Shown: piece after piece, positions 4,061-33,229 of the stretch | Layout: every line of letters starts with the position of its first letter | Numbering within the stretch: the stretch's first letter is position 1 | NCBI GenBank assembly: GCA_016787995.1 | Contig: JAEUTB010000172.1 | Location: 1 to 36,518 of the forward strand | Length of the DNA: 36,518 nt | Direction: 5' to 3' | DNA from: Flavobacteriales bacterium | GTDB taxonomy: Bacteria > Bacteroidota > Bacteroidia > Flavobacteriales_F > PHOS-HE28 | The notes under the pieces: model-generated | The model's database searches: none | The model's input: only the letters and a program-made list of their open reading frames with translations | What the model was told of the DNA's origin: nothing | Translations under genes and position numbers: made by a program

Positions 4061-4438
4061 ATGCGTCAACTCCTCCTCCTTCTAGCGGTCTTCGTTCTTT
4101 CTTGCACCGTCCCCGGACAGGGCAAAGGCACTGTCGACCCAGCGGGCTTTGAAGCGCGCATCGGTGAAATGGATGTTCAGCTGCTCGATGTCCGTACGGC
4201 GGGCGAATTCCAAGGTGGCCACCTTGCCGAAGCCCGGAATTTCGATTGGACCAACGGCGACTTGAAAGCGGCTGTGCCCAAGCTGGACAAGACCAAGCCT
4301 GTGTTGCTCTATTGTGCCTCGGGGCGCCGCAGTGCCGCTGCGCGTGAGTACCTGCTTGAACAGGGCTTCACCGATGTGGTGGACCTCGCAGGTGGCATCG
4401 GTGCGTGGACGAACGCCGGGAAGCCGGTGGTCCACTAG
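4061..4438 (+). CDS. rhodanese lipoprotein
   Basis: A 125-residue protein. The start at 4061 gives MRQLLLLLAVFVLSC, a lipoprotein signal with lipobox VLSC (Cys15); the open frame upstream reads through the preceding gene and terminator and is not used. The rhodanese domain spans about residues 25-122 with LLDVRTAGEFQGGHL and the active loop CASGRRS (Cys85). It should be anchored on the periplasmic side of a membrane, which separates it from the cytoplasmic rhodanese just upstream. Together with the SoxB-like and DsrE-like proteins it suggests periplasmic sulfane-sulfur chemistry. Confidence 0.88.
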   Translation: MRQLLLLLAVFVLSCTVPGQGKGTVDPAGFEARIGEMDVQLLDVRTAGEFQGGHLAEARNFDWTNGDLKAAVPKLDKTKPVLLYCASGRRSAAAREYLLEQGFTDVVDLAGGIGAWTNAGKPVVH

Positions 4439-4456: not shown

Positions 4457-5161
4457 ATGGGGCACCAGTGGATCGTATCGATGGTGATGGCCCTTATGGC
4501 TTACTTGCCCCTCCTGGCACAGAAAGGGCCCGTGCGGGCGACGGGCGCCATGCGCAACACCATGTTCAACGGGCAGCTCGCCGGGCTCATCGATCTGGAT
4601 AGTCTGGCTCTGCCGGGCACCTTCGGGATCGGCCCGCTCGAATACCTGCGCGGCGAAGTGCTCGTGTTGGATGGAGAAGTGTGCACCTCCGCGGTGAACA
4701 ACAGCGGCTCCATGTTGGTGACCCGGGATCAAGCGATGAAGGCACCTTTCTTCGTGCATCAAGCGGTGAAGCAGTGGAAGGAAGTGCAGCTCCCGGATAG
4801 TGTTATGGACCTCGCCGGGTTGGACCGCTTCCTGACTGCCCGCTATGCCGGTCTGAACGAGCCCTTCGCCTTCCGGTTGTCTGGACCATTCGAGCGCGTG
4901 GAAGTCCACATCGTGGATGTCCCCTTGGGAACCGTGATCAACGGGCCGGACGATGCACATCGCGACAACAAGCACTTCCAGCGCTCGGGTGTCGAGGCCG
5001 AAGCGCTCGGCTTCTTCTCCACCGCACACAAGGCCGTTTTCACCCACCATGATACCAACATCCATGTCCACGCCATTACTGTGGACCGCGACTGGATGGG
5101 ACATGTGGAGGCCTTGAGCTTCATTGCCAAGCGCATGAGCCTTCAGGTGGCACTGCCCTGA
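4457..5161 (+). CDS. exported acetolactate-decarboxylase-like protein, copy 1
   Basis: A 234-residue protein with a signal peptide (about residues 1-21, ending LLAQ). The rest matches the acetolactate decarboxylase (BudA/AlsD) fold: EYLRGEVLVLDGEV, APFFVHQ, and GFFSTAHKAVFTHHDTNIHVHAI. The zinc triad H-x-H-x10-H is intact as His203, His205 and His216. The known enzyme converts acetolactate to acetoin in the cytoplasm. This one is exported, and where the family has a catalytic Arg in the FxxVxVR strand it has His151 (VEVHIVDVP). Classic activity is therefore doubtful. A clear paralogue lies at 17062-17781. It follows the rhodanese lipoprotein by 18 bases and may share its transcript. Confidence 0.75.
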   Translation: MGHQWIVSMVMALMAYLPLLAQKGPVRATGAMRNTMFNGQLAGLIDLDSLALPGTFGIGPLEYLRGEVLVLDGEVCTSAVNNSGSMLVTRDQAMKAPFFVHQAVKQWKEVQLPDSVMDLAGLDRFLTARYAGLNEPFAFRLSGPFERVEVHIVDVPLGTVINGPDDAHRDNKHFQRSGVEAEALGFFSTAHKAVFTHHDTNIHVHAITVDRDWMGHVEALSFIAKRMSLQVALP

Positions 5162-9673: not shown

Positions 9674-10648
9674 ATGTTCGACTGGCTCGATTCCCTCGTG
9701 GCCTGGCTGGTGTATGACACCATCGGGCTCGACGCAAGCACCCATGGGGGGCAGGCGCTGCACTTCTTCTTCTACGACTCGATCAAGATCCTGATCCTGC
9801 TCTTCGCGATCACCTTCCTCATGGGGATCGTGAACGCCTACTTCCCCATCGACCGCATCCGCAATTTCCTCTCCCGCAACAAGCTGTATGGTGGTGAATA
9901 CCTGCTGGCAAGCACTTTCGGCGCCATCACGCCATTCTGCTCGTGCAGCTCGGTGCCGCTGTTCATCGGCTTCGTGAAGGGCGGCATCCCCATGGGCGTC
10001 ACGCTCGCCTTCCTCATCACCTCGCCACTGGTGAACGAGGTGGCCATCGCCATCTTCATCGGCCTGTTCGGCCTGAAGACCACCGTGATCTACGCGGTCA
10101 GCGGCATCCTCCTGGGCACCATCGGCGGGTATGTGCTGGGCCGCTTCAACCTGGAGCGCTTCCTCACACCCTGGGTGCAGGGCGTGATCCAGCAGGCGCA
10201 AAGGGAAGAAGCCTACGAGGGTGAACGGCTCACCTTCGTGCAACGTCTGCCGGGCGTGGCGCGCGAAGCTTGGGGGATCGTGAAGAGCGTGATCCTCTAC
10301 GTGCTCATCGGCATCGGTATCGGCGCGCTCATGCACGGCTTCGTGCCCACGGGCTTCTTCGAGCGCTACATCAGCGAGGACAACCCCTTCGCCGTTCCGC
10401 TGGCGGTGGTGCTCGGCGTGCCCATGTACGCCAATGCCGCCGGCGTGCTGCCCGTGATCCAGGTGCTGGTGCAGAAAGGCGTGCCGCTGGGCACCGCCAT
10501 CGCCTTCATGATGGCCGTGATCGGCCTTTCGCTTCCCGAGGCCACCTTGCTCAAGAAGGTGATGACCATGAAACTGATCGCCATATTCTTCGGCACGGTG
10601 GCCTTCTTCATCATCCTCAGCGGCTACCTCTTCAACGCGATCCTATGA
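9674..10648 (+). CDS. arsP: ArsP-like permease (organoarsenical efflux family)
   Basis: A 324-residue membrane protein of the permease family that includes ArsP, which exports trivalent methyl- and aryl-arsenicals. The hallmark is TPFCSCSSVPLF with Cys89 and Cys91, followed by the GFVKGGIPMGVTLAFLITSPLVNEVA segment. Hydrophobic segments are arranged in two halves with a central charged loop (QQAQREEAYEGERLTF). With ArsM encoded 3 kb upstream the natural substrate would be methylarsenite. Related family members move other soft metals, so the substrate is inferred. Confidence 0.88.
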   Translation: MFDWLDSLVAWLVYDTIGLDASTHGGQALHFFFYDSIKILILLFAITFLMGIVNAYFPIDRIRNFLSRNKLYGGEYLLASTFGAITPFCSCSSVPLFIGFVKGGIPMGVTLAFLITSPLVNEVAIAIFIGLFGLKTTVIYAVSGILLGTIGGYVLGRFNLERFLTPWVQGVIQQAQREEAYEGERLTFVQRLPGVAREAWGIVKSVILYVLIGIGIGALMHGFVPTGFFERYISEDNPFAVPLAVVLGVPMYANAAGVLPVIQVLVQKGVPLGTAIAFMMAVIGLSLPEATLLKKVMTMKLIAIFFGTVAFFIILSGYLFNAIL

Positions 10649-11331
10649 AGTGGATGGTGGTCATCGCGGCGGCATTGGCTTCATGCAACGGGGCGATGGA
10701 ACACCCATCCGAGCATGACGCATCCGCAGCCCACGTGGAACCGCAGTGGCGCGTAGTGGATACCGAGTTCAGCAAGGGGCGGCTCGGTCATGAACAGACC
10801 GTGACCTTCCAGGACCTGATCACGTTCCACGGGCATTGGTGCGACGGCCTTGTGGTGGGCGCCCTCGGACTGGGTGAAGCGTTGACGCCGCTGTTCCCGA
10901 ACGCGCCCATTGACCGCACCGACCTGCGCATCATCAGCCGGTCATCGCCCTGCCTCACCGATGTAGCCGTGATGCTCACCGGTGGCCGCGCGCAGTTCGG
11001 CACCTTCCAGGTGAGCGACACCCTCGCCGGGCTCTACATCGTGCAGCGCATCAGCGACGGCAAGGCGTACCGCGTCCGGCTCAACCCCGGCATCAAGCCC
11101 GCGGCCATCGACAGCCTGACGCCGCTCGCCATAGCACGCACGCTGTCGCCGTGCGGCCTGGATTCCCTGCAGGCCATCGAGCAACGCTTCGGCGATGCGC
11201 TGCTCGCCATGGATCCGAAGGCGGCGTTCACCATCAGCGAACTGGCCGACTTCCACTGGCCGGAAGCCACGGGACCCGTGCACACCAAGACCGACATCCT
11301 CAACAAGCTCGCGCCGCGTTGCGCGCACTGA
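10645..11331 (+). CDS. FmdE-domain lipoprotein
   Basis: A 228-residue protein whose ATG overlaps the arsP stop (ATGA). The start MKWMVVIAAALASC gives a lipoprotein signal with lipobox LASC (Cys14). The domain resembles FmdE (formylmethanofuran dehydrogenase subunit E-like): FHGHWCDGLVVGALGLGEAL (His62, His64, Cys66), where the family usually reads HGHxCPG. Further cysteines lie in SSPCLTD, SPCGLDS and APRCAH. Such domains bind a metal in the cases known. No methanofuran pathway is expected here, so a periplasmic metal- or arsenical-binding role is more likely; function is not established. Confidence 0.75.
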   Translation: MKWMVVIAAALASCNGAMEHPSEHDASAAHVEPQWRVVDTEFSKGRLGHEQTVTFQDLITFHGHWCDGLVVGALGLGEALTPLFPNAPIDRTDLRIISRSSPCLTDVAVMLTGGRAQFGTFQVSDTLAGLYIVQRISDGKAYRVRLNPGIKPAAIDSLTPLAIARTLSPCGLDSLQAIEQRFGDALLAMDPKAAFTISELADFHWPEATGPVHTKTDILNKLAPRCAH

Positions 11332-17065: not shown

Positions 17066-17781
17066 GCACCTTTGCCCTGATGCTTCGCTTGCCAATGTTC
17101 AGCGCGCTCCTCTTCTCGACGATCGCGTGCTCCGCCCAGAACGGACCGGTGATCGCAACCGGCGCCATGCGCAACACCATGTTCAATGGGCAGTTGGCGG
17201 GGCTTATCCAACTCGACAGCATCGCGAAGCCAGGTACCTACGGCATCGGTCCGATGGAATACCTGCGCGGGGAAGTCCTGCTCCTCGATGGGGTCGTATT
17301 CGTGTCTGAAGTGGAGAAGGAACTCGGCATGCAGGTGGTACAACGGACCGAAGTGCGCGCGCCCTTCTTCGTTCATCAGCGTGTTACGGAGTGGACCACC
17401 GTGCAAATTCCGGACAGTGTGGTGGACCTCCCAACGCTCGATGGCTTCCTCACGGCACGGTTCGCACAAAGCGGCGAGCCCTTCGCATTCCGGATCGGCG
17501 GCGTCATCCCCTCGGTGGATGTCCACATCGTGGATGTACCAATGGGATCAGAGGTGAACGGTCCGGACGATGCCCACCAGCACAACAAGGACTACCATCT
17601 GGAAGATCGCACCATGGACCTCGTCGGCTTCTTCTCCACGAAGCACAAGGCCGTATTCACGCACCACGACACGAACATCCATGTGCACGCGATCACTGCG
17701 GAGGGCGACTGGATGGGACATGTGGAGCAAGTGCGGTTCAGTCCGTCATCGGTGCAGCTCCAGATTGCCACGATCCGGTAA
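17062..17781 (+). CDS. exported acetolactate-decarboxylase-like protein, copy 2
   Basis: A 239-residue paralogue of the protein at 4457-5161, closely similar through most of its length. The start is the ATGA overlap with the MFS-rhodanese stop. A signal peptide ends near TIACSAQ; the Cys gives a poor lipobox, so lipidation is uncertain. The zinc triad is retained at His207, His209 and His220 (NIHVHAI ... MGHVE), and the family's Arg is again a His (VDVHIVDVPMG). It is the last gene of the arsR2 operon. A role outside acetoin synthesis is likely, but none can be named. Confidence 0.75.
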   Translation: MSTFALMLRLPMFSALLFSTIACSAQNGPVIATGAMRNTMFNGQLAGLIQLDSIAKPGTYGIGPMEYLRGEVLLLDGVVFVSEVEKELGMQVVQRTEVRAPFFVHQRVTEWTTVQIPDSVVDLPTLDGFLTARFAQSGEPFAFRIGGVIPSVDVHIVDVPMGSEVNGPDDAHQHNKDYHLEDRTMDLVGFFSTKHKAVFTHHDTNIHVHAITAEGDWMGHVEQVRFSPSSVQLQIATIR

Positions 17782-18329: not shown

Positions 18330-19514
18330 TCATTCCTCCCCGCTGTTCTTCAGCGTGGAGAGCAGGGTGTATGCGCCCTTCACCACCAAGGGGCGCTGTT
18401 GCAGTTCCGCGGAAGGTCGCGTCAATTCGACCATGCCGTACTCGGTGGCGCCGGTGGTCACGGGCACCAGGGTATAACTACTGTCGGCGTTCACGGTGAA
18501 GACGGCCATGCCCTCTCCGGTTCGCACCACGGCTTCCTCCGGCACACACCACACGGTATCGGTCTGGATCTCCAACGTGGCGCTCATCGCCATGCCGGGC
18601 ACCAGATCCTTGTGTGTCTTGGTGAAGTGACAATGCACCACCGTGCTGCGGTCGGCATCCAGGCTGCGTCCCACTAGGATCACCTCCGCCGTGTATTCAT
18701 CGTCGGGATGTGCGGTGGGCCTCGCGTGTACTTCCTGGCCTACGCGTACATGCGGCAGGTCCTTCTCGAAGACGGTCAACGCGAGATGGATGTCCTTCGG
18801 GTCCACCAGCTCGAAGAGTACATCGGTGGGTTGGACGTAGCGGCCGATGTTCACGTTCACCTTCGCCACCCAGCCGTGGATGGGCGAACGCAAGGCCACG
18901 CTGCGCGAGATGCCCTCCGCAGTGAGTCCCGCTGGATCCACCCCGATCAGGCGGAGCTGCTCGCCCAGTGAACGCAAGGTGACCTTTTGGGTGTTGAGTT
19001 CGGCGGTCGCTTCCTGGAACACCTTGTCGCTCGTGGTCTTTGATGCGTTCAAGGCCTTCTGGCGTTCGTAGTCCTGCGCAAGCATCCTCAACCTGCCCTC
19101 GGACACCAGGTAATCCTGCTGTAGTTGGATGAAGCGCGGATCCTCAAGCACGGCGAGCGTTTGCCCTTTCTGCACTTCCATGCCAGGAAGCAGGTCCGTG
19201 GAGCGCAAGTAACCACCGAGCGGCGCACTGATGCTCACGAGGTTCTGCGGTGGTACGTCCACCACGCCTTGCACGGGCATGAGCACGCCGAGTGAACGGC
19301 GTTCGGCCTTGCCCACTACGATACCTGCGTTCGCGAGTTGTTCCGGTGTGAGCGTGACCGATGTGGCTGATGCAGCATTCGGTGCGGTTTCGGCAGGAGG
19401 GTCAGTCGTGGTGCAGGATGAGAGCGTTAGCAGGATGGCGCAGGTGCTGCTGATCAGCACCTGTAGCGTCGACCCACTGGGTCGACCAACGATCTTTGAA
19501 AGGGAAGGACGCAT
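18330..19514 (-). CDS. CusB/CzcB-type membrane fusion lipoprotein
   Basis: A 394-residue periplasmic adaptor of an RND metal pump. The start MRPSLSKIVG leads to lipobox LSSC (Cys34). The order is the usual one: barrel-sandwich strands (VSISAPLGGYLRSTDLLPGMEVQKGQTLAVL), a coiled hairpin (about 145-195), returning lipoyl strand (VALRSPIHGWVAKVNVNIGRYV), a beta-barrel domain, and a membrane-proximal domain near VPEEAVVRTGEG. It joins the inner-membrane pump to the outer channel. It lies 14 bases after the pump gene. Confidence 0.92.
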   Translation of the reverse strand: MRPSLSKIVGRPSGSTLQVLISSTCAILLTLSSCTTTDPPAETAPNAASATSVTLTPEQLANAGIVVGKAERRSLGVLMPVQGVVDVPPQNLVSISAPLGGYLRSTDLLPGMEVQKGQTLAVLEDPRFIQLQQDYLVSEGRLRMLAQDYERQKALNASKTTSDKVFQEATAELNTQKVTLRSLGEQLRLIGVDPAGLTAEGISRSVALRSPIHGWVAKVNVNIGRYVQPTDVLFELVDPKDIHLALTVFEKDLPHVRVGQEVHARPTAHPDDEYTAEVILVGRSLDADRSTVVHCHFTKTHKDLVPGMAMSATLEIQTDTVWCVPEEAVVRTGEGMAVFTVNADSSYTLVPVTTGATEYGMVELTRPSAELQQRPLVVKGAYTLLSTLKNSGEE

Positions 19515-19528
19515 GTGCTGCGGGGGTA

Positions 19529-22500
19529 TTATTGTTCGTTGAAAGCATTCAGTTCGAAAGCGGCGCGGCCCAATTCGCGCAGGGCATCCAGGTATTCCAT
19601 GGAGAGTGCGATGGACTGCCCGGTGAGAAGGCTCCATTCCAGGCGATCGATCTGGCCGTTCAGGTAAGCTTCTTCCGTGGAACGACGCAATTGTTCGGCT
19701 TCCTGTTGCGCACCTTGTTCGAAGGCTTCGACGCGGGCCAGTTGTGCGGTATACCGTTGCTGCGCTTGGAGCAGTTGAGCGCGTACCTCTTGTGTGAGGG
19801 CGAGCGTTTCGTTCGAGGCACGTTCCGTATCGATCCGAGCGGCTTTGGTGCGCGCGTGCTGTGCGCCGAAGAAGAGCGGTATCCCGACACCCGCGCGCAC
19901 CATGTTGAAGCGTTGATCGCGCCCATAGATCACCGACCCATCAGGAACGGAAGGCGACTGGTACAAGGTCATGCTCGCCGCACCCAGGTTGAACCCAGGC
20001 AGCATGTACGCGCGTTCCATCCGCCAGCGTGCATCGGCGGCCGACTCCTGTTCATTGGCCGAACGCACCACGGGATGCTTCACCACCGCGCTTTCATCGG
20101 GCAGGAGTGGCACGCTCTGTTTCAACGGGATCGGAAGGAGCGACCAGTCACCTGGGCTGTTCATCAATTGGCTGAGGCGCGTGCGGGCCTGATCCAGTTC
20201 TGCTTGCACCTGTTGCACCCGCGAACGCATCAACATGGATTGCGTGCGTGCTGTGGCACGTTGTAGCACATTGCTGGATCCAAGATCGAAGCGCTGCTCT
20301 TCACCGGTAACGGCTATGATGTAGATGCTGTCCGCTTCCTGCAACAGCCGAAGCTGTTCGCCGAGGATGAGCACGGCGTGGTAGGTCTGGCGCACCTGCA
20401 CGCGCACTTCGCGTTGGCGCATCGCTTGCTCCCATCGAACGCCGGCGGCACCATGCCTCAACATTCTCTTGCGCTGCGAATAGACCGTCGGAAAGGCTAA
20501 GCTCTGCGAGATGCTCAGCCGGTCATCGTTCACGTTCGTGTTGATCTGTCCGTACTCGACATCCACGTTCGTGCGCGGAAGGTCCCACGCGCTGCCGACC
20601 AGTGCCTCTTCCACTTCACCGCGCAAAGCGGCGCTCTTCAGGTAGAGGTTGTTGCGCATGGCGCTGTCCACCGCTTGTTCCATGGTGAGGGAATGCGCGG
20701 TCGATTGAGCACGTGCACCATCAGGCGCCAAACTCAGGAGGAGGACCAACGCAGCAGACACGGCCACGCGCTGTGCACCGCCATCGGACGAGCGCTTGCG
20801 GTGTACCAGCATGTACAAGGCGGGTAGCACGAAGAGGGTGAGAAAGGTGGCGGTGATCAGTCCGCCGATCACCACCGTGGCCAGAGGCCGTTGCACTTCG
20901 GCACCAGCGCCGTTACTGAGCGCCATGGGCAGGAAACCGAGCGAAGCCACGCTGGCGGTCATCAACACCGGACCAAGACGGTTCGCCGTGCCGGTGCGTA
21001 TGCGATCGCGGATATCGTTCACGCCTTCCTTCATCAAGTGCTCGAACTCGCTGATGAGCACGATGCCGTTGAGCACCGCCACCCCGAACAAAGCGATGAA
21101 GCCCACGCCGGCCGAGATGCTGAAGGGCATGCCCCGCCCCACGAGGGCGAATACGCCACCGATCGCGGAGAGCGGCACCGCGCTGAAGACGAGCAGGCTC
21201 AACTTCAACGAACCGAAGGCGAAGTAGAGCAGCAGTAGGATGAGCAGCAGTGCAAGTGGAACGACAACACTTAGACGCTTCTTAGCGTCCATCAGGTTCT
21301 CGAAGGTGCCGCCGTAGGTGGTGTAGTAGCCCACAGGCAAACCCAGTTGCGCATCCACCTTGGTTCGCAGTTCCTCCACGATGCTCTGCACGTCGCGGCC
21401 GCGCACGTTGAAGCCCACGGTGATGCGGCGTTTCGCATCCTCGCGCTGCACCTGGTTCGGTCCATCCTCGATGCGCACATCGGCGAGCAATGAGAGCGGC
21501 ACCGGTTTTCCCATCGGCGTCGGCACCAACAGCCGCTGCACATCGGTGAGGTCCGTGCGGCTTTGGTCACGAGCGCGTACCACCAGATCGAAACGACGTT
21601 CGCCCTCGAAGACCTGGCCTGCGACACTTCCCGCGAAGGCCGTGCGCACCACGTCGTTCACCGCATCCACATCCAGTCCGTAGCGGGCGAGCGCGCCGCG
21701 ATCGTGCGTCACCACGATCTGCGGCAATCCGCCCACACTTTCCACATAGAGGTCCTTGGCTCCTTCCACCGTGTTCACCAGCTCGCCCAGCTTGTGTGCG
21801 TATTTGGCCAGAGAGTCGAGGTCTTCGCCGTAGATCTTGCACACCACATCCTGGCGTGCGCCGGTCATCAGTTCGTTGAATCGCATCTGCACGGGGTATT
21901 GGAAACCGAACGTGGCGCCGGGCAGTGCACTCAAGGTGTTGCCCATCTTCTCGGCCAGTTCATCGAAGCTCTTCGCGCTGGTCCATTCCTTCTTGGGTTT
22001 CAGGATCACCATCATGTCTGCGGCTTCAATGGGCATGGGGTCCGTGGGGATCTCGCCGCTGCCGATCTTGGCCACCACCTTCTCCACTTCGGGATACCCG
22101 GCCTTGAGGAGACCCGCCGCCTTCTGACAAGTCTCAACAGTGTTCGTGAGCGAGCTGCCGGTGAGCAGGCGCGTGTCGATGGCGAAGTCGCCTTCCTCCA
22201 GTTCTGGGATGAACTCGCCCCCCATCGCGGCCATGATCCCACCGGCCACCACAAGGAGGACGACCGAGGCAACGACCAGTCGAGCCGGTTTCAGAATGGC
22301 CTTGTCCAACCATCTGCGATAGAACTTCCCGAGGCGTTCCATCATGCGGTCGGTCCAGGTCGCTGGCGGGTTCAGCTTCTTGCTCAGGACCATCGCGCTC
22401 ATCATCGGCACATAGGTGAGTGAGAGGATCGCAGCGCCCAGAACTGCGAAGGCCACCGTCTGCGCCATGGGCTTGAACATCTTGCCTTCGATGCCTTGCA

Positions 22501-23899
22501 GCGAGAGGATCGGCAGGTACACGATGAGGATGATCACCTGCCCGAACATGGCCGAATTCATCATGCGGCTGGCGGAGCTGCGCACGGTCTCATCCATGCG
22601 TTGTTGATCCAAGCGCGCGAGACCGCCAACACCTTTCGCATGGTGCAGTCGGTGCAGCACGGCTTCCACGATGATCACTGCACCATCTACGATCAGGCCG
22701 AAATCCAGGGCCCCCAAACTCATCAGGTTCCCGCTCACGCCGAAGAGGTTCATCATGATCACCGCGAACAGCATGGCCAATGGGATCACCGAAGCCACGA
22801 CCAGACCGGCGCGCAGGTTGGCCAGGAAGAAGACCAGGATCAACACCACGATCAGCGCACCTTCCATCAAGTTCGTTTCCACGGTGGCGATGGCGTTGTT
22901 CACCATCTTGGTGCGATCGAGGAAGGGTTCGATCGTCACACCTTCTGGCAAGGTTTTTTCGATCTGTGCGATGCGCTCCTTCACGTTCTTGATCACTTCG
23001 CTCGAGTTGGCACCCTTCAGCATCATCACGACGGCGCCGGCCGTTTCGCCTTCGTCGTTGTACACCATGGCCCCATAACGGGTAGCGGTACCGAGGCGCA
23101 CTTCGGCCACATCATGCAGCAGCACGGGCGTATGGTCGGGCAATACCTTCACCTGGATGGTTCGGATGGCCTCCATGTCCGCGATCAATCCTTCGGTGCG
23201 GATGAACAGCATCGATGGTCCTGTTTCGATATAGGCCCCGCCGGTATTGGCGTTGTTGCGTTCCACGGCGGTGAAAACATCCGCGATGGTGATGCCCATG
23301 GCGCCGAGCCGTTCTGGATCCACAGCGATCTCGTACTGCTTCAGCTTGCCGCCGAAGCTGCTCACATCGGCCACGCCTTCCGTGCCGATCAATTGCCGCC
23401 GCACGATCCAGTCCTGGATGGTGCGCAGTTCCGAAGCATCGTACTTGCCTTCGTAGCCGGGCTTGGGTTTCACGACATACTGGAAGATCTCGCCGAGGCC
23501 ACTGGAAACCGGCCCCAGTTCCGGCTTTCCGAGCGACTCCGGAATGGTGATCTGCGCCAGCCGTTCGGTGACCTGTTGACGCGCCCAGTACACATCGGTG
23601 GCATCGTCGAACACGATGGTGACGAGCGAAAGCCCGAAGCGACTGAAGCTGCGTTGCTCGATGATACCCGGCACGTTGCGCGTGGCCTGCTCGATGGGGA
23701 AGGTGATGAGGCGTTCGATGTCGCCAGCGCCCAGCGCTGGGCTCACGGTGATCACCTGTACCTGGTTGTTGGTGATGTCGGGTACGGCGTCGATCGGCAG
23801 CTGGGTGACGTTGTAGACGCCAACGCCGATGAGGCCGAGGACGAGAAGCCCGATGATGAGCTTCTGTTGTATGGAGAATGCGATGATCCTGTCCAGCAT
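19529..23899 (-). CDS. CusA/CzcA heavy-metal RND pump fused to a TolC-type outer-membrane channel
   Basis: A 1456-residue fusion. Residues 1 to about 1035 are a complete HME-type RND pump: opening MLDRIIAFSIQQKLI, the proton-relay segment DFGLIVDGAVIIVEAV, two large periplasmic loops and a final membrane segment ending FVLPALYMLVHRKR. A second hydrophobic stretch (VAVSAALVLLLSLAPDGARA, about 1045-1064) resembles an internal signal peptide, and about 1065-1456 is a TolC/CzcC-type domain with two long helical pairs. The start at 23899 follows the pump family's usual first residues. Metal specificity (Cu/Ag or Co/Zn/Cd) cannot be fixed by eye. Similar fusions are known in Bacteroidota. Confidence 0.92.
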   Translation of the reverse strand: MLDRIIAFSIQQKLIIGLLVLGLIGVGVYNVTQLPIDAVPDITNNQVQVITVSPALGAGDIERLITFPIEQATRNVPGIIEQRSFSRFGLSLVTIVFDDATDVYWARQQVTERLAQITIPESLGKPELGPVSSGLGEIFQYVVKPKPGYEGKYDASELRTIQDWIVRRQLIGTEGVADVSSFGGKLKQYEIAVDPERLGAMGITIADVFTAVERNNANTGGAYIETGPSMLFIRTEGLIADMEAIRTIQVKVLPDHTPVLLHDVAEVRLGTATRYGAMVYNDEGETAGAVVMMLKGANSSEVIKNVKERIAQIEKTLPEGVTIEPFLDRTKMVNNAIATVETNLMEGALIVVLILVFFLANLRAGLVVASVIPLAMLFAVIMMNLFGVSGNLMSLGALDFGLIVDGAVIIVEAVLHRLHHAKGVGGLARLDQQRMDETVRSSASRMMNSAMFGQVIILIVYLPILSLQGIEGKMFKPMAQTVAFAVLGAAILSLTYVPMMSAMVLSKKLNPPATWTDRMMERLGKFYRRWLDKAILKPARLVVASVVLLVVAGGIMAAMGGEFIPELEEGDFAIDTRLLTGSSLTNTVETCQKAAGLLKAGYPEVEKVVAKIGSGEIPTDPMPIEAADMMVILKPKKEWTSAKSFDELAEKMGNTLSALPGATFGFQYPVQMRFNELMTGARQDVVCKIYGEDLDSLAKYAHKLGELVNTVEGAKDLYVESVGGLPQIVVTHDRGALARYGLDVDAVNDVVRTAFAGSVAGQVFEGERRFDLVVRARDQSRTDLTDVQRLLVPTPMGKPVPLSLLADVRIEDGPNQVQREDAKRRITVGFNVRGRDVQSIVEELRTKVDAQLGLPVGYYTTYGGTFENLMDAKKRLSVVVPLALLLILLLLYFAFGSLKLSLLVFSAVPLSAIGGVFALVGRGMPFSISAGVGFIALFGVAVLNGIVLISEFEHLMKEGVNDIRDRIRTGTANRLGPVLMTASVASLGFLPMALSNGAGAEVQRPLATVVIGGLITATFLTLFVLPALYMLVHRKRSSDGGAQRVAVSAALVLLLSLAPDGARAQSTAHSLTMEQAVDSAMRNNLYLKSAALRGEVEEALVGSAWDLPRTNVDVEYGQINTNVNDDRLSISQSLAFPTVYSQRKRMLRHGAAGVRWEQAMRQREVRVQVRQTYHAVLILGEQLRLLQEADSIYIIAVTGEEQRFDLGSSNVLQRATARTQSMLMRSRVQQVQAELDQARTRLSQLMNSPGDWSLLPIPLKQSVPLLPDESAVVKHPVVRSANEQESAADARWRMERAYMLPGFNLGAASMTLYQSPSVPDGSVIYGRDQRFNMVRAGVGIPLFFGAQHARTKAARIDTERASNETLALTQEVRAQLLQAQQRYTAQLARVEAFEQGAQQEAEQLRRSTEEAYLNGQIDRLEWSLLTGQSIALSMEYLDALRELGRAAFELNAFNEQ

Positions 23900-23996
23900 G
23901 GGATGTTCCGGTGAATGATGGGAATGCACCGCAGACCGCGCGCGGCGCGTCAACGGTTCGACCGGAACAGGAAGGAATGCTTTGACCGGCCTGGAC

Positions 23997-24498: not shown

Positions 24499-26163
24499 TT
24501 ATGGAGAAGATGAGAATTCCATGGAAAAGATGGAGCCATTGCTATCCGATGAACGCAATAGGATATCCCCTCCCATGGCGCGCATCATCTCCCGCGCGAT
24601 GGAGAGCCCGAGGCCTGTGCCGGAAGTGGAGTGTGGCGTGAACCGTTCGAAGAGATGCGACTGCTGTTCTGCTGGGATACCAGGGCCACTGTCAGCAACG
24701 GTGATCGTCTTTCGATCCCCGTCGACTCCGGCGCGCACAGTGACGGTGCTTCGTGCAGGGGCGTGACGTAGTGCATTGCTGAGCAGATTGATCAATGCCC
24801 ACGTGGCTTTTTCCCCGTCCGCTGCCACAAGCAACTCCCCATCTGGATAGCTCACCTCGAGGGAGATGTCTTCCTTTCTCGCGCTGCTGGAAACTGCTTC
24901 AACGGCCGCTTGGACCAGGTCCTTCAGAAGAACCTCCCTGACCTCGAGCCGCATCCGGCCTGATTCCACCTGGGCCATATCGAGCAACTCGCTGACGATG
25001 CGTACCAATCGCTTGTGGTCTTTCCGAAGGTCGTCGAGGATGCCCTGCATTTCCGGTTTCATCGGCTGCCGTTCCAGAAGCGAGAGTCCAAGATCCGTGC
25101 TCGCCAGGGGTGTCTTCAGTTCATGGCTGATGGTCGCGAGGAACATGGTCTTATTCTGGTCGCGTTCCTGGAAGAGGGTGATGTTGTGCATGAGATGCAC
25201 GATGCCGATCACCTCATTCCCATTATTGATCGGCGTATGGCTGGCCGCAAAGAACTGCTCCTTGCCATCCACGATGGCTTTGAAAGGCTTGTTCTGGTTG
25301 CCGGTGATCACCAGTCGCATCAAGTCATTGCGATGGACCAGGTCATGCACGGATGCTCCGATGAGTTCAGTTGCTTCCATGCCAATTAGTTCAACGCCCT
25401 TGCGATTGACGAAGAGGACACAGCCTGCATGGTCCACACCGAATGCTGCATCTTGCAGGCTGTTCAAGACGGCTTCGACACGCGCTTTCTCGTCCATGAT
25501 GCGCGCGAGATTGCTGCTTTCCCAGCGTTGCAGCTCGCTTGCCATGGCGTTGAACCGATCGGCCATATGCCCGAATTCATCGTTGCGAGCAAGCTCCACA
25601 CGTTCTCGGTAGTCTCCTCCGGCCACGCGATCGATCCCCTCGGTGAGCTTGCGGATGGGTTCCGCGATGTGCTCGGGTATGCTGAAGAGCATGGATAGGG
25701 CGATCAACGCGCAGAACGTACCGGTGAGGCCGATCCAAACGAGTGCGTTCTCGCCCTTGCTTTCCGCCGCTGCCACTCTGTGCACGATGGCCTCCTTGTT
25801 CAGGTCCACGATGCGGGCGATCCGCTGGCGCAATAGGGCGGTGGAAAGGGAGTCCCCGTCGGTCCTTGTCCACGCGTCAACGGCAATCGCGAGCTCGGCG
25901 GTGGCCTGGTCCTCGCCCATCTCGGTGATGTTGGCCTGCTGCTTCGCGAGCAGTGCATGCAGACTGGCAGCCGCCGCAGGACCCTGCCCATCGATGGCGG
26001 CGACCATGCCCTGCATGTACTCGATGCTCGTGTAATTGGCCTGCAGCAGCCCCCGGCCTTCGCCACGCAACGACCAGATGGTAGCGAAACTGACCGCAGC
26101 CAGGACGAAGACGAGCAGTGCCAACGCACCGAGCGCCAAGGTCAATCGCACTTTGGTCTTCAT
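24499..26163 (-). CDS. membrane histidine kinase of the kdp cluster (HAMP-PAS-HisKA-HATPase)
   Basis: A 554-residue sensor kinase. Membrane segments at about 9-30 and 141-162 enclose a periplasmic helical domain. These are followed by HAMP (about 160-215), PAS (about 228-330), HisKA with HELKTPL (His347) and HATPase with NLLSNALRHA, DSGPGIP and GTGLGLSIA. ATGA overlap joins it to the KdpD half encoded just upstream, so the two probably work as a split KdpD. The PAS and HAMP arrangement differs from the four-segment membrane domain of classical KdpD. The likely partner is the sigma-54-type regulator at 33230-34552. It is the last gene of the cluster. Confidence 0.9.
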   Translation of the reverse strand: MKTKVRLTLALGALALLVFVLAAVSFATIWSLRGEGRGLLQANYTSIEYMQGMVAAIDGQGPAAAASLHALLAKQQANITEMGEDQATAELAIAVDAWTRTDGDSLSTALLRQRIARIVDLNKEAIVHRVAAAESKGENALVWIGLTGTFCALIALSMLFSIPEHIAEPIRKLTEGIDRVAGGDYRERVELARNDEFGHMADRFNAMASELQRWESSNLARIMDEKARVEAVLNSLQDAAFGVDHAGCVLFVNRKGVELIGMEATELIGASVHDLVHRNDLMRLVITGNQNKPFKAIVDGKEQFFAASHTPINNGNEVIGIVHLMHNITLFQERDQNKTMFLATISHELKTPLASTDLGLSLLERQPMKPEMQGILDDLRKDHKRLVRIVSELLDMAQVESGRMRLEVREVLLKDLVQAAVEAVSSSARKEDISLEVSYPDGELLVAADGEKATWALINLLSNALRHAPARSTVTVRAGVDGDRKTITVADSGPGIPAEQQSHLFERFTPHSTSGTGLGLSIAREMMRAMGGDILLRSSDSNGSIFSMEFSSSP

Positions 26164-27332
26164 GACAGGATCACCAGGTCGACGTCATTCGCGCTCAAGG
26201 CGGTGAGCAGGCGGTTGAAGGTATTGGTGCGCAGGATCACCTGCCAAATGCTGATGTGCGGCTTGCCGATGCACAAGGTGGTCACCTGCTTGTCCTTCAC
26301 CACTTGAAGTATCGCTTCGGTGATGTCCGCACGTTCCAGGTTGAGGATCCTCGCCGGAAGGAAGCCGATGCCGTGTTTTTGCGCGGCGGCCTGGGCCTGG
26401 ATCACATCGCCACCGAGCTCGGTGGCCAGCTTGAAGTTGTTGATCAGGTGGCGCTGTTTGTCCAGCGGGATCCGGTCCACGGTCTCGTTCGGCGTCTGCA
26501 CATAAAGCACGCTCCAATCGCTATGGTAGTAGTTGGCGAGCCGTGCGGTCTTGCGGATGATCTTGGCCGCCACCTGGTGGTTGCTGCTGATGAGCGCGAG
26601 GAAGTGCTCGTGCCGCAACTGCTTCGGCTTCTCCACTTCCTGCTCCACCTTCCGCTCCACCTGCCCGGCCACTTCCTTCAGCGCCAGCTCCCGCAGCTGT
26701 AGGATCTTGTCCGGCTGGAAGAAGTTGCGCAAGGCCGTCTCCACTTTGGTGCTGTCGTAGATCTTGCCTTCGCGCAGGCGCGCGATCAGCTCGTCGGCGG
26801 TGAGGTCGATGTTCACCACCTCGTCGGCGCGCTGCAGGAAGCTGTCCGGTATGCGCTCGGTGATGGCCACGCCCGCGATGCGTTCCACTTCGGCGTTGAT
26901 GCTCTCGATGTGCTGGATGTTCACCGCCGTGATCACGTCGATGCCGTTGTCCAGCAGGTCGAGCACGTCCAGGTAGCGTTTGGCGTGTTTGCTGCCGGGT
27001 ACGTTGGTGTGCGCGAGCTCGTCCACGATCACCTTGGCCGGGTGCAATAGCAACGTGGCGTTCAGGTCGAATTCCTCCAGCCGCTTGCCCTTGTAGTACA
27101 CCTCGCGTCGCGGGATCACGGGCAAGCCTGCGAGCAGGGCATGTGTCTCCGCCCGGTTGTGCGTTTCCACGAAGCCTACCTGGATGTTCACGCCCTTGGC
27201 CAGCAGCTCGTGCGCCTCCTCCAGCATGCGATAAGTCTTGCCCACACCGGCGCTCATGCCGATATAGACCTTCAGCCGGCCACGTTGGGAGACCGGCCGA
27301 AGCAGGGGATTGGTGCCGTCCGAGGCGATCAC
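26160..27332 (-). CDS. kdpD: KdpD N-terminal sensor protein, without kinase domain
   Basis: A 390-residue protein equal to the cytoplasmic N-terminal half of KdpD. The KdpD domain has a Walker A loop GMSAGVGKT (25-33), VETHNRAET and VDELAHTNVPGSKHAKR; a universal-stress-type domain follows (about 250-385). No membrane segments, HisKA or HATPase are present; these are encoded separately at 24499-26163. In KdpD this half senses intracellular potassium and nucleotides. The start is GTG, overlapping the porin stop (GTGA). Confidence 0.92.
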   Translation of the reverse strand: MIASDGTNPLLRPVSQRGRLKVYIGMSAGVGKTYRMLEEAHELLAKGVNIQVGFVETHNRAETHALLAGLPVIPRREVYYKGKRLEEFDLNATLLLHPAKVIVDELAHTNVPGSKHAKRYLDVLDLLDNGIDVITAVNIQHIESINAEVERIAGVAITERIPDSFLQRADEVVNIDLTADELIARLREGKIYDSTKVETALRNFFQPDKILQLRELALKEVAGQVERKVEQEVEKPKQLRHEHFLALISSNHQVAAKIIRKTARLANYYHSDWSVLYVQTPNETVDRIPLDKQRHLINNFKLATELGGDVIQAQAAAQKHGIGFLPARILNLERADITEAILQVVKDKQVTTLCIGKPHISIWQVILRTNTFNRLLTALSANDVDLVILS

Positions 27333-28423
27333 GGTAGTGCGATGGCGAGACTGGTCGTGAAGAAGGTATTGGAGGTCGTGGCCTTTCCGTCAGCGTCCGC
27401 GAAGACCTTGTCCTCGCTTTGCAGCATCCGCGCTTCCACACGCCACAGTACGTTCGTTGATACCCAACGGTCGAAGTTGAGCGAGTAGCCCATGGTGTTG
27501 AAACCATTGGGCGTTCCCGTGGCGATGATCACGCCGTCCTTGTCCTGGTACAATTCCCAACGGGCAGCCACATAGGTCTTGTCGTTGATCTTGAACCGCG
27601 GGATCACGATCGGCGTGATGAAGGTGTTGGTACCTGCCTGTCCGGTAGGCAGGCTGTCACCGCTGGCTGCTTCTTCCATGCCGATGTCGCAACCCAGGAT
27701 CAATCCCAGACGCTTCGTCACTTGGAACTGTGCGTACAGGTTGTTGAAGATGCGCATCTGGCTCACACTGTCCGGCTTGTCATTGCCGATGAAGGTGCTC
27801 CAGTTAATCGTCGTGGTGCTGTTCGGTTTGTAGGTGAGCTGTGTGCCGAAGGCGGGCGTGTTGTTGCCATCCACCCGGGTGATGCGCTGCCAGCCGTTGA
27901 GCAACAGGCCGCTTGCGTACCACTTCTCGTTCTTGCTGGTGTAGCTCACGCGCGCACCGGCTTCGTAGTATGGTGTATTGTCAGCGAGCAGGCTACGGGT
28001 CAGGTTCCAGCAGTCTTTGCCAATGGCGCTCTCGAAGCCGATGTGGCTGGGCATGATGCCCGCGTCGAGCCACAGGTTCCGGGTCTTGCTCAGCTTCACG
28101 CCAGCATTCGCCTCGAACACGCTGCGCAGCAGTTCGGGCTCGGCGGCCAGATTGTACTGCGGATAGGTCCCTGCCATCAGCGCGATGTTGCCGCGCACGT
28201 TGTTCTTCGCGTAGTTGAGCTTCACCATGCCGAGGTTCAGGTTCACCTCGTTGTGGCGGTTATAGCTGTAGACGAAGCCCGGGCGCAGGTGGTTCTCCGG
28301 TTCCGCCAGGTCGAAGCTGTAGTACATCTCGGCATACGCGCTCAGGGTGATCGCGCTGTCGAGCTGTTGTGCGGAAGTGGAAAGGACGATGCCCAGGAGA
28401 GGCAGGAAAAGCAGGCGTTTCAT
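27329..28423 (-). CDS. outer-membrane porin of the kdp operon
   Basis: A 364-residue beta-barrel protein with signal peptide MKRLLFLPLLGIVLSTSAQ. The sequence AYAEMYYSFDLAEPENHLRPGFVYSYNRHNEVNLNLGMVKLNY is typical of the Bacteroidota outer-membrane beta-barrel porin family found in kdp operons. It probably allows K+ across the outer membrane, which is inference from location. An in-frame palindromic insert (27633-27653, protein LPTGQAG) lies in one loop. It overlaps kdpC by ATGA. Confidence 0.82.
   Translation of the reverse strand: MKRLLFLPLLGIVLSTSAQQLDSAITLSAYAEMYYSFDLAEPENHLRPGFVYSYNRHNEVNLNLGMVKLNYAKNNVRGNIALMAGTYPQYNLAAEPELLRSVFEANAGVKLSKTRNLWLDAGIMPSHIGFESAIGKDCWNLTRSLLADNTPYYEAGARVSYTSKNEKWYASGLLLNGWQRITRVDGNNTPAFGTQLTYKPNSTTTINWSTFIGNDKPDSVSQMRIFNNLYAQFQVTKRLGLILGCDIGMEEAASGDSLPTGQAGTNTFITPIVIPRFKINDKTYVAARWELYQDKDGVIIATGTPNGFNTMGYSLNFDRWVSTNVLWRVEARMLQSEDKVFADADGKATTSNTFFTTSLAIALP
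27633..27653. repeat. palindromic element inserted in the porin gene
   Basis: CCTGCCT-GTCCGGT-AGGCAGG: 7-bp perfect arms; with two G-T pairs the whole 21 bases can fold. It is in frame and encodes LPTGQAG in a predicted loop. It resembles the CCTGCCGGTAGGCAGG-type dispersed palindromes that occur within genes in some Bacteroidota. Confidence 0.6.
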
Positions 28424-28989
28424 TTCGTTGCGGCGTCGAGCGCCAGGTTCAGTTCAAGTACGTTGATGGTGGCCGTACCGAACAGGCCCAGCAAAGGTCC
28501 GTCGGTATGCGCATCGATCAGTTGTTGCACGGCCGCTTCGCTCAGGCCGCGCGCGGTAGCGATCCGCTTCACCTGCACCCGTGCGGCTTGTGCGCTCAGG
28601 TGCGGGTCCAGGCCGCTGCCGCTGGCCGTGACCAGTTCGCTGGGGATCTCGTTCTTCGCCACGCCCGGGTTGTGTACCAGGAAGGTGTCGATCCGGGCCT
28701 GCACGGTAGCCAGGTGGTCCGGGTTGCTGGGGCCCTTGTTGCTGCCGCTGCTGCCTTGTGCGTTGTAGTCGATGGCGCTGGGGCGGCTTTGGAAGTAACC
28801 GTCGCTGGTGAAGAGCTGGCCCACGAGCGCGGCGCCGACGGGCTTGCCATCACGGCTCACCAGTTCGGCCTCACCGCCTTGTGGCCCAGTGATACCGGCG
28901 AAGCCCCAGACGATCAAGGTGTAGAAGCCGCAGCAGAGGACCAGCATCACGGCGGTCATGCGCAGGGCAGGGATCAGGTTCGTTCTCAT
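28420..28989 (-). CDS. kdpC: K+-transporting ATPase subunit C
   Basis: A 189-residue protein of normal KdpC length with one N-terminal membrane segment and the family stretches GQLFTSDGYFQSRPSAIDYNAQGSSGSN, SELVTASGSGLDPHLS and LLGLFGTATINVLELNLAL. KdpC stabilises the KdpFAB complex. It starts three bases after the kdpB stop and overlaps the porin start by four bases (ATGA). Confidence 0.96.
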   Translation of the reverse strand: MRTNLIPALRMTAVMLVLCCGFYTLIVWGFAGITGPQGGEAELVSRDGKPVGAALVGQLFTSDGYFQSRPSAIDYNAQGSSGSNKGPSNPDHLATVQARIDTFLVHNPGVAKNEIPSELVTASGSGLDPHLSAQAARVQVKRIATARGLSEAAVQQLIDAHTDGPLLGLFGTATINVLELNLALDAATK

Positions 28990-28992
28990 GGC

Positions 28993-31026
28993 TTAGAAGA
29001 AGGGGGTGATGACCAGGTCGATGAGCTTGATGCCGATGAAGGGCACGATGACGCCACCGATGCCGTACAGCAGCAGGTTGCGGCGCAGGATGGCGCTGGC
29101 ACCGATGGGCCGGTACTTCACACCGCGCAAGGCCAACGGGATCAGCATCGGGATGATGATCGCATTGAAGATCACCGCGCTGAGGATGGCGCTCTCGGCG
29201 CTGTGCAGCTTCATGATGTTGAGCGCGCCTAGGGCGGGCATGCTCACCATGAAGAGCGCGGGCACGATGGCGAAGTACTTGGCCACGTCATTGGCGATGC
29301 TGAAGGTGGTGAGCGTGCCGCGCGTCATCAGCAGCTGCTTGCCGATCTCCACCACCTCGATGAGCTTGGTGGGGTCGTTGTCGAGGTCCACCATGTTACC
29401 GGCCTCCTTGGCGGCCTGGGTGCCGCTGTTCATGGCCACGCCCACATCGGCCTGGGCGAGCGCGGGCGCGTCGTTGGTGCCGTCGCCCATCATGGCCACG
29501 AGCTTGCCGCCCTGTTGTTCCTTCTTGATGTAGGCCATCTTGTCCTCCGGCGTGGCCTCGGCGATGAAGTCGTCCACACCGGCCTTGGTGGCGATGTATT
29601 TCGCCGTAAGCGGGTTGTCACCGGTGACCATCACTGTCTTCACGCCCATCTTCCGCAGGCGCTCGAAACGCTCCTGGATGCCGGGCTTGATGATGTCCTG
29701 CAATTCGATGCAACCGATCACGCGCTCGTTCTCGGCCACCACCAGCGGGGTGCCACCGTTCTGCGCGATACGCTTCACTTCGGTTTCCACATCGGTCGGG
29801 AAAATGTTCCCAGCGCTTTCGGTGAGCTTGCGAATAGCGTCCTGGGCCCCTTTGCGGATGCGCAGGCCCGTGCCGAAGTCCACACCGCTGGTGCGCGTCT
29901 GCGCGGTGAACTTGATCAGCTCGGCGCCTTCCATGGAGATAGTGCGGGTGACATCGGTGCCCGCCAGTTCCACGATGCTCTTGCCCTCGGGCGTGTCGTC
30001 GGCCATGGAACTGAGCGCACAGGCCTTGATGAAGTGCGCGCGATCAACACCGTTCGCTACGTGGAAGCCGGTGGCCTTGCGGTTGCCGATGGTGATGGTG
30101 CCGGTCTTGTCCAGCAGCAGCACATCCACATCACCGGCGGTCTCCACCGCGCGGCCGCTCTTGGTGATCACGTTCGCCTGAAGCGCGCGGTCCATGCCCG
30201 CGATGCCGATGGCGCTGAGCAGCCCGCCGATGGTGGTGGGGATCAGGCACACGAAGAGGCTGATGAAGCTGGCAATGGTGATGGTGGTGTTCGCGTAGTC
30301 GGCGAAGGGCTTCAGCGTTACGCACACGATCAGGAACACCAGCGTGAAGCCCGCGAGGAGGATGGTAAGGGCGATCTCGTTCGGCGTCTTCTGCCGGCTC
30401 GCGCCTTCCACCAAGGAGATCATGCGGTCCAGGAAGCTGGTGCCCGGCTCGCCGGTGACCTCCACGGTGATGCGGTCGCTGAGCACGCGGGTGCCGCCGG
30501 TCACGCTGCTGCGGTCGCCGCCGGCCTCGCGGATCACCGGAGCGCTTTCGCCTGTGATCGCGCTCTCGTCGATGGTGGCCAGGCCCTGCACGATCTCGCC
30601 GTCCGTGGGGATGGTGTCACCAGCTTCGCAGAAGAACACATCGCCCTTGCGCAGGTCGCTGCTGCGGATGGTCTTCAGACTGCCGTCGGCCTGCTTCAGT
30701 TTCGCGGGGGTGTCCTCGCGCAGTTTCCGCAGCGAAGCGGCCTGGGCTTTGCCGCGCGCCTCGGCGATGGCCTCGGCGAAGTTGGCGAAGAGCAGGGTGA
30801 CGAAGAGGATCAGCAGCACCGTGAGGTTGTACCCGAAGGAACCCTGCGAGCCGTCGCCGCTGAACGCGGTGTACAGCGTGACCAGCAGCATGATGAAGGT
30901 GCCGATCTCCACGGTGAACATCACCGGGTTGCGCAGCATGGTGCGGGGCGAGAGCTTCACGAAGCTCTGCACGAGCGCCTCGCGGACCTGCTCGGCGGGA
31001 AAGAGGGAAGTGGTCTTGTTGGTCAT
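28993..31026 (-). CDS. kdpB: K+-transporting P-type ATPase subunit B
   Basis: A 677-residue P-type ATPase. Key motifs: TGES ([11 protein letters not shown]), the phosphorylation site DKTGTI in [13 protein letters not shown], the nucleotide-binding KGAQDAI, and [16 protein letters not shown]. It hydrolyses ATP to drive K+ through KdpA. The start [13 protein letters not shown] is used; the frame runs further upstream through a repeat-rich spacer (31027-31130) but that peptide ([12 protein letters not shown]) is not conserved-looking. Confidence 0.97.
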
Positions 31027-31056
31027 TGCGATCAGAGGTTCCGGGAGTGCGAGAGT

Positions 31057-31115
31057 GCAAGAGTGAGAGGGTGTGAAGGACCAGTGGATGCACTCGCTCA
31101 CCCTCTCACTCTTGC
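31057..31115. repeat. 17-bp perfect inverted repeat in the kdpA-kdpB spacer
   Basis: GCAAGAGTGAGAGGGTG at 31057-31073 and its exact complement at 31099-31115, with a 25-base loop; weaker pairing extends outwards. The 104-base spacer is otherwise empty and the rest of the operon has almost none. It may be a mobile palindrome or an mRNA hairpin adjusting kdpB expression. Confidence 0.75.
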
Positions 31116-31130
31116 GCTCTTTCACTGCGT

Positions 31131-32846
31131 TCATGGCATGCTGAAGTATTCGGCCAGGGGACCGAGGGCCAGCGCGGGGAAGAAGCTGAGCGCGGCCAGG
31201 ATGAAGATCAAGGCGAAGGTGAGCGCGCCGAAGGTGGGCGTGTCGGTGCTCAGCGTGCCGCCGCCGGCCGGCACCACCTTCTTGGCGGCGAGGAGCCCGG
31301 CGATGGCCAGCGGACCGATGATGGGCAGGTAGCGACCCAGGATCAGCACCAGGCCGGTGAGGAAGTTCCAGAAGAAATTGTTGTCGCCCAGGCCCTCGAA
31401 GCCGCTGCCGTTGTTGGCCGCCGCGCTCGTGTTCTCATACAGCATCTCGCTGAAGCCGTGTGGACCGGGGTTGTTGAGCCAGTTGGCCGGGGCGACCGTC
31501 CACGCGGCGTCGCCGTGGTGGGTGTTCGTGTAGCTGGCGATGGCCGTGGCCACCAGGATCAGGAAGGGGTGCAGCAAGGCGATGAGCGTGGCGATCTTCA
31601 CTTCACGCGCCTCCACCTTGCGGCCCAGCAGTTCCGGCGTGCGGCCCACCATGAGCCCGGCGATGAACACGCCGATGATGATGAAGATGTAGTAGTTGAG
31701 GAAGCCCACGCCCACGCCGCCGTAAAAGGCGTTGATCATCATGTCCAGCATCTGCAGGGCGCCGCTCAGCGGGGTCATGCTGTCGTGCATGGCATTCACG
31801 CTGCCGTTGCTGGTGGCGGTGGTGGCGATGCCCCAGAAGGCCGAGGCCTCCGCACCGAAGCGCACCTCCTTGCCCTCCATGCTGCCCATCGGCTGTTCGA
31901 TGCCCATGGCGGCGATGGCCGGGTTGCCGGCGCGTTCGGCCAGGATGGAGCCCGCGCTGAAGAGCACGAAACCGGTGGTCATCACGCCGAAGACCGTCCA
32001 TGAAAGTCTACGGTTGTTCAGGTAGAAGCCCAAGGCGAAGACCAGCGCAATGGGGATGAGGATGATGCTGATCGTCTCCACCATGTTGGTGAGGTAGTCG
32101 GGGTTCTCCAACGGATGGGAGCTGTTCACGCCGAAGAAGCCGCCGCCGTTGGTGCCCAGCTGCTTGATGGCGATCATCGCCGCAGCGGGGCCTTGCGTGA
32201 TCTGCTGTTCCGCGCCTTCCAGCGTGGTCACCGTGCTGCGGCCATCGAAGGTCATGGGCGTGCCGCGCACCACCAGGATACAGGCCAGCACCAGCGAGAG
32301 CGGCAGGAGAATGCGCGTGATGCTGCGCGTGAAGTACATCCAGAAGTTGCCAAGCGCGGTGGTGGTGCGCTGCTGCATCGCCTTGAACAGAGCGGCCAAC
32401 GCGGCCATGCCCGTGGCGGCGCTCACGAACTGGAAGAACATCACCACGAAGAGCTGGGTGAAGTAGGTGAGGCCGCTCTCGCCGCTGTAGTGCTGCAGGT
32501 TGCAGTTCACCACGAAGCTGATCACGGTGTTGAAGGCGAGGTCGGGCGTCTGGCCCGCGTTGCCGTCGGGGTTCAATGGCAGCTTGTCCTGGAAGATCAG
32601 GGCGAAGAAGCCGTAGACGAACCAGATCAGGTTGATGGTGAGCAGCGCTTTCAAATGCTGCTTCCAGGTCATCTCCTGGGTCGCATCCACCCCGGCGAGG
32701 CGGTAGATGCCACGTTCAACGGGAAGCAGGAAGTCGCTCCAGTGCTTCTCGCCCCTGTAAACGCGGGCGATGTAACGCCCTAGGGGGATGGCCAGCACCA
32801 GGGTGAGGCCGTACATGGCGATGACGCCAAGCAGTTCAGTATTCAT
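31131..32846 (-). CDS. kdpA: K+-transporting ATPase subunit A
   Basis: A 571-residue membrane protein of the potassium-channel-like KdpA family, of normal length. Selectivity-filter regions are visible as [47 protein letters not shown] and NNGSGFEGL. It forms the K+ translocation path of KdpFABC, a high-affinity scavenging system induced at low K+. It lies 44 bases after kdpF. Confidence 0.97.
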
Positions 32847-32890
32847 TGGTCGTGGTCCATTGAGTTGTCACGCTGAGTGCTGTCGAAGCG

Positions 32891-32971: not shown

Positions 32972-32975
32972 GGTG

Positions 32976-33183: not shown

Positions 33184-33187
33184 CCTA

Positions 33188-33212: not shown

Positions 33213-33229
33213 ATTTCAGGAATGGAAGA

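Follow-up and report, generated by a model that had tools for sequence, protein, structure and literature searches.

What does an exported relative of acetolactate decarboxylase (ALDC) do when the catalytic arginine has gone from its active site and its gene lies among sulfur and arsenic genes? The question is raised by P0001, and by its paralogue P0002, both encoded in the 36,518-nucleotide stretch of Flavobacteriales DNA analysed here (the window; Table 1). P0001 matches the ALDC family PF03306 with 73.8 bits, above the Pfam gathering score of 25, and is 62% identical to P0002 in a full-length alignment. A PF03306 scan of the source assembly, which is 74% complete, gave 73.5 and 70.2 bits for the two paralogues and no third place. 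The N termini of both proteins are hydrophobic and signal-like as judged by eye, in agreement with the signal peptides of the original prediction. Across 96 relatives, a home-made rule assigned a lipobox to 48 and another hydrophobic N terminus to 38; among the remaining 10, several show a lipobox but have no upstream ATG. Both P0001 and P0002 are predicted to be exported, either as periplasmic or as lipid-anchored proteins.

Table 1 Features of the window, in order of position (P0001 and P0002 are the two paralogues)
Feature	Position	Strand	Evidence or remark
Exported rhodanese	4061..4438	+	PF00581; 18-nt gap before P0001
P0001, exported ALDC-fold protein	4457..5161	+	234 aa
Codon E67 of P0001, counterpart of ALDC Glu65	4655..4657	+	phmmer alignment; 96/96 conserved
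Codon H151 of P0001, at the ALDC Arg145 place	4907..4909	+	three alignment methods
His-rich loop of P0001, S188...H191...T196-H197-H198	5018..5050	+	two-residue insertion relative to ALDC
H203-x-H205-x10-H216 of P0001, the ALDC zinc triad	5063..5104	+	alignment and conservation
arsR, arsM, arsC-like and acr3, downstream of P0001	5243..8393	+	arsR begins 81 nt after P0001
ArsP_1 permease	9674..10648	+	relative adjoins an ALDC-like::FmdE fusion in another genome
Exported FmdE-like protein	10645..11331	+	PF02663; in genome G248 its relative forms a fusion with an ALDC-like domain
MFS transporter fused to rhodanese, coupled to P0002	15581..17065	+	domain scan
P0002, paralogue of P0001	17062..17781	+	239 aa; later start at 17080 possible
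Codon H155 of P0002, at the ALDC Arg145 place	17524..17526	+	alignment
CusB-like and CusA-like genes, the latter with a C-terminal efflux-protein part	18330..23953	-	named by eye

The active site was compared with that of Brevibacillus ALDC (chain 4bt2_A), in which we take Arg145, Glu65 and Glu253 to be the catalytic residues. As originally predicted, the zinc motif H-x-H-x10-H is kept in both paralogues (H203/H205/H216 in P0001 and H207/H209/H220 in P0002), and both read VHIVDVP in the strand that holds the arginine in ALDC. A phmmer alignment pairs E67 of P0001 with Glu65, H151 with Arg145, and the triad with H194/H196/H207. A profile search and a profile–profile alignment (probability 99.5) agree on all these pairings for Brevibacillus and Bacteroidota ALDCs; in the Klebsiella/Enterobacter (Enterobacterales) rows of the profile search, a gap introduced by the aligner shifts H151 onto a neighbouring histidine.

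Conservation was counted in 96 subfamily and 21 ordinary sequences, reduced from 122 and 31 open reading frames (ORFs) by dropping truncated or broken members (L013, L133 and L136) and near-copies with identical last 150 residues; the ordinary loci L024 and L035 had been missed by ORF extraction, and the ordinary rows L017, L018, L020, L026 and L028 were excluded from alignment A4. Among the 96 distinct subfamily sequences, E67, H151, H203, H205 and H216 are each invariant, H191, H197 and H198 are each present in 94, H168 is present in 85, and the first eight of these residues occur together in 93. Because it is invariant in all 96 relatives, the exchange of arginine for histidine, with the changes that accompany it, is not due to chance. 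In the ordinary Bacteroidota ALDCs, the H151 column holds R in 17 of 21, G in 3 and A in 1, and the H197 column is a gap in all 21. Thr58 of ALDC is replaced by proline in 88 of the 96 subfamily sequences. The predicted loss of the catalytic arginine therefore stands for both paralogues and can be refined: an invariant histidine takes its place, and a His-rich loop is added.

At the C terminus, only 15–25 residues follow the third zinc histidine in 95 of the 96 relatives (the remaining one is a fusion), so the tail that bears Glu253 in ALDC has no counterpart in the subfamily. This agrees with the suspected absence of the C-terminal glutamate, and the structural alignment described below stops at 4bt2 residue 223. 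The corresponding length is 43–51 residues in 15 of 21 ordinary Bacteroidota ALDCs; the other six have tails of at most 32 residues, one of them cut by a contig end. Absence of the arginine, taken as a mark of the family, is not diagnostic on its own, as it is missing from 4 of the 21 ordinary Bacteroidota ALDC-like proteins too. These four (L025, L031, L032 and L033) score as ordinary ALDCs yet are without both Arg145 and the C-terminal glutamate, and the three that were scanned (L025, L031 and L032) pass or just pass the cut-off of the NCBI equivalog model for ALDC, TIGR01252.

To compare folds, an AlphaFold2 model of P0001 was used (72 sequences; mean pLDDT 90.9, pTM 0.85), the core of which is weakest at the His-rich loop (mean pLDDT 69 for residues 191–200). 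Foldseek placed 14 ALDC chains at the top (E 2.4e-15) and human C11orf54 next. VIA-align gave Z 23.2–24.5 and rmsd 2.2–2.5 for ALDCs (Z 24.3 and rmsd 2.2 over 202 residues for 4bt2), Z 15.2 for C11orf54 and Z 6–8 for PPC/AF0104 proteins, confirming the ALDC fold at Z 23–24.5 on a predicted model. The subfamily thus shares with ALDC (BudA/AlsD) the fold, Glu65 and the zinc triad, and differs from it in the histidine at Arg145, the missing Glu253 tail, the THH insertion and H191. The PPC/AF0104 proteins (PF03479) share part of the fold, with a weak PF03479 match in 2 of 72 members, but they are smaller and their matches span about half of the P0001 model. C11orf54 (PTD012; DUF1907; 1xcr) has a related fold with a three-histidine zinc site, although it is only 13% identical to the P0001 model over 205 residues. 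No DUF1907 (PF08925) match was found in the 72 members at E ≤ 0.001; a DUF1907 sequence query matched 0 of 247 genomes, but its controls were equally silent. According to a 2025 PNAS commentary (PMC12435205), C11orf54 is a 3-dehydro-L-gulonate decarboxylase with a three-histidine zinc site and is kin to ALDC, and on that report the ALDC fold already hosts two decarboxylations.

In a sample of 395 genomes of the phylum, PF03306 matches 42. An ordinary ALDC group, at 23 places, scores 192–294 bits (in one case the gene is split, with 65 bits for its second fragment), whereas the subfamily of P0001 and P0002 scores 25–76 bits. The subfamily profile reverses this order, with 120–362 bits for the subfamily and at most 53 bits for ordinary ALDCs. 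Split by the latter score, the subfamily is present in 20 of the 395 genomes, the source genome included; it is also present in 9 of 34 other genomes of the source genus. A scan of genome contigs returned 103 relatives, of which 80 were retained, by record titles all Bacteroidota except for one Ignavibacteriae record, with search patterns that were the subfamily's own conserved stretches and so say little on spread outside Bacteroidota and Ignavibacteriota. All 72 scanned members match PF03306 at E ≤ 0.001. Under TIGR01252, by contrast, P0001 and P0002 reach 50.4 and 46.1 bits, far below the cut-off of 180.65; among 10 ordinary Bacteroidota controls, 8 exceed 190 bits and the other two reach 181.5 and 171.2. 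P0001 and P0002 are very probably not ALDC equivalogs. A tree made by a quick method, without bootstrap, in which a number of long terminal branches were flagged, has one branch (SH-aLRT 100) that parts the 75 subfamily rows from the 16 rows of ordinary ALDCs. The idea of a separate exported family is borne out by this clade, by the reciprocal gap in profile scores and by the invariant signature; the subfamily forms its own branch of the ALDC fold, found mostly in Bacteroidota, in which the arginine is always histidine. Among titles and abstract openings in the literature, no description of the subfamily or of its link to metals was found.

The window itself is a metal and sulfur island. The first ATG of P0002 overlaps the TGA stop codon of the MFS–rhodanese gene, and the CusB-like and CusA-like genes lie beyond a haem-binding gene that adjoins P0002. 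In profile scans, arsM (367.7 bits against a cut-off of 263) and acr3 (394.8 against 282.8) exceed their thresholds, whereas the arsC-like gene is below its own. The island further holds an OprD-type porin, a weak DsrE, rhodaneses, DsbD and a chromate transporter. At one end, a SoxB-like protein (20–1717) scores 252.7 bits with TIGR04486, below the SoxB cut-off of 550; its gene heads a dsrE/porin/rhodanese cluster conserved throughout the genus, and no other Sox genes were recognised by eye in the window. The CusA-like RND pump (19529–23953, minus strand) appears by eye to continue, within a single frame of 1474 aa, as an outer-membrane efflux protein. In a kdp-like potassium system identified by eye at 24499–34600, the KdpD N-terminal part and the histidine kinase are two separate genes. 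A rhodanese-bearing gene lies within short flanks of the ALDC-like gene in 9 of 9 same-genus loci (L003–L010 and L012), often in the opposite orientation.

Several distant members are encoded within metal-export operons, in which gaps and overlaps were calculated after adding the stop codon to the gene ends given by the script. In two lineages the gene is coupled to cusA/copA. At L172 the genes run cusA, outer-membrane efflux protein (OEP), ALDC-like, copA and cusB; the ALDC-like stop overlaps the copA start by 4 nt, copA carries an HMA domain and two heavy-metal-binding domains (HMBDs), and cusB carries an HMBD. In L177, the ALDC-like gene sits between cusA and OEP with 4-nt overlaps on both sides, and in L165 a copA with HMBD begins 10 nt downstream of it. 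In the Hydrotalea locus L047, the ALDC-like gene is the last of arsR-arsM-acr3-arsC-[ALDC-like], with successive gaps of 25, 15, 4 and 11 nt, and in one marine clade a CDF exporter (Cation_efflux) lies 28 nt downstream of it. An N-terminal HMBD is fused to the ALDC-like domain in L081 and L013. A fusion to FmdE lies next to ArsP in genome G248 (L042, 865–2178, and L176, 7720–9015, both minus strand); the FmdE part and the ArsP of L176 are 50% and 66% identical to the separate neighbouring FmdE and ArsP of the window. The FmdE-fused ALDC-like copy has lost H191 and H198. A SASA carbohydrate-esterase domain is fused to the ALDC-like domain in L162 (9989–11509, minus strand). In the tree, the Cus-operon members and the FmdE fusion rank with the most divergent sequences and are not close kin of P0001 and P0002. 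Most subfamily members stand alone.

The surroundings of 20 genome-sampled loci were compared with 60 random 20-kb regions of the same genomes. Because the list of metal queries was drawn up after some loci had been inspected, the resulting p-values are too favourable and descriptive rather than a test: copA and HMBD are each near 3 of 20 loci and 0 of 60 controls (p 0.014 each), cusA is near 2 of 20 and 0 of 60 (p 0.06), any copper or heavy-metal item is near 3 of 20 and 1 of 60 (p 0.046), and a same-strand metal gene lies within 300 nt of 4 of 20 members and 3 of 1158 control genes (Fisher 2e-6). No enrichment of arsenic or sulfur genes was found in the genome sample (1/20 versus 1/60 and 1/20 versus 0/60, respectively). 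A metal gene occurs within 10 kb at 4 of 20 genome-sampled loci, at 20 of 80 named loci (a set with numerous near-copies and short contigs) and at 0 of 20 ordinary ALDC loci; by the metal queries, none occurs within that distance at 16 of the 20 and 60 of the 80. The proposed tie to sulfur and arsenic genes is thus a local instance of a broader but patchy link: neighbours of either the metal or the sulfur kind are absent for the majority of the family, and some distant members are coupled instead to copper or arsenic exporters. The sulfur tie is confined to the source genus and a few other loci.

The subfamily is a distinct, exported variant of the ALDC fold whose active site has been rebuilt. 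These observations suggest, tentatively, that it acts in metal(loid) stress outside the cytoplasm, with a pocket remade around histidines. Gene context makes a role in metal(loid) stress about an even call, and a second metal site is a little less likely than that. In such a protein, the His-rich loop would close over the metal site, and the pocket that grips the acid substrate through its arginine in ALDC would therefore be lined instead by several extra histidines. The rebuilt pocket might hold a second metal ion or a metal complex, and the protein might help, outside the cytoplasm, to export or detoxify metal(loid)s. The metals concerned would be copper and arsenic in the operon-bearing lineages, and arsenic and perhaps sulfur in the source genome. 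Periplasmic Cus, Cop and Ars accessory proteins (for example, CusF, or proteins with HMBD or HMA domains) share an operon location or an HMBD fusion with some lineages of the subfamily, although we take the CusF fold to be unrelated to the ALDC-like fold. A bolder version, which we regard as doubtful, is that a decarboxylase fold has become an exported multi-metal centre, in which a metal-binding histidine replaced the arginine and a His-rich lid was added, and which Bacteroidota operons for copper and arsenic export have repeatedly recruited as a partner in capture, transfer or redox chemistry.

The main rival, itself rather unlikely, is an exported zinc lyase that uses an ALDC-like mechanism on another small keto or hydroxy acid and has no direct role in metal handling. 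A metal-bound hydroxy-ketone would be processed with Glu67 as the proton shuttle and His151 as an acid or anion contact. The invariant catalytic glutamate and triad favour such an enzyme, as does the next nearest fold, C11orf54 (Z 15.2), which is reported to be a decarboxylase with three-histidine zinc (PMC12435205). The esterase fusion in L162 also suits an enzyme better, and most members stand alone. However, the anion-binding arginine and the second glutamate are missing, the extra invariant histidine pattern is left unexplained, and the recurrent coupling to metal exporters speaks against it.

Readings closer to ALDC itself fare worse. Copper and other soft metals damage the Fe–S clusters of dehydratases, and a clean-up decarboxylase for branched-chain precursors (acetolactate or acetohydroxybutyrate) that leak when the Fe–S dehydratases of the pathway are broken would join the ALDC fold to the metal operons. 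We consider this improbable, since the active site departs from ALDC at Arg145 and Glu253, and no branched-chain pathway gene was recognised beside members when the neighbour lists were read by eye. A genuine ALDC with histidine in place of arginine is equally improbable: the PF03306 match in every scanned member and the passing of the NCBI cut-off by some proteins that lack the arginine are outweighed by the low TIGR01252 scores of the two paralogues, the separate clade and the missing tail. The loss of two classical residues might also mark a dead ALDC relative kept for a structural or lipoprotein role, which we think very improbable given that eight potential ligand or catalytic residues are kept together in 93 of 96 relatives. 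The distant members that recur in copper and arsenic export operons hint at metal stress rather than acetoin making.

Other explanations of the locus were rejected. A phage origin was rejected, as searches of 50,697 phage records and two scans of viral contigs returned no relative. FmdE is not a general partner; at a threshold of E < 1e-50, FmdE-like proteins are present in 4 of 395 genomes, the source genome included, and two of the four (G107 and G409) have no ALDC-like gene by the subfamily profile. A family-wide conserved operon was rejected as well, with no neighbour cluster exceeding 10 of 80 loci and the commonest reflecting Pontibacter synteny.

The strict signature of the subfamily, the histidine at the Arg145 place together with the THH loop, matters for annotation. 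The PF03306 match makes members liable to be named acetolactate decarboxylase, as has happened on an Acinetobacter plasmid, and operons for metal resistance would then seem to contain an acetoin enzyme. Should metal binding or a metal phenotype be found, the subfamily would be a new component of Bacteroidota Cus, Cop and Ars systems; if a new decarboxylation proves true, it would be the third activity for the fold, after those of ALDC and C11orf54. The Acinetobacter record (27% identity) was the only one on a plasmid, and two other queries returned nothing more of full length; a plasmid-borne family was rejected. This divergent relative (L153, 7902–8654) lies beside nitrogen genes and transposases and, by eye, keeps the histidine at the arginine place.
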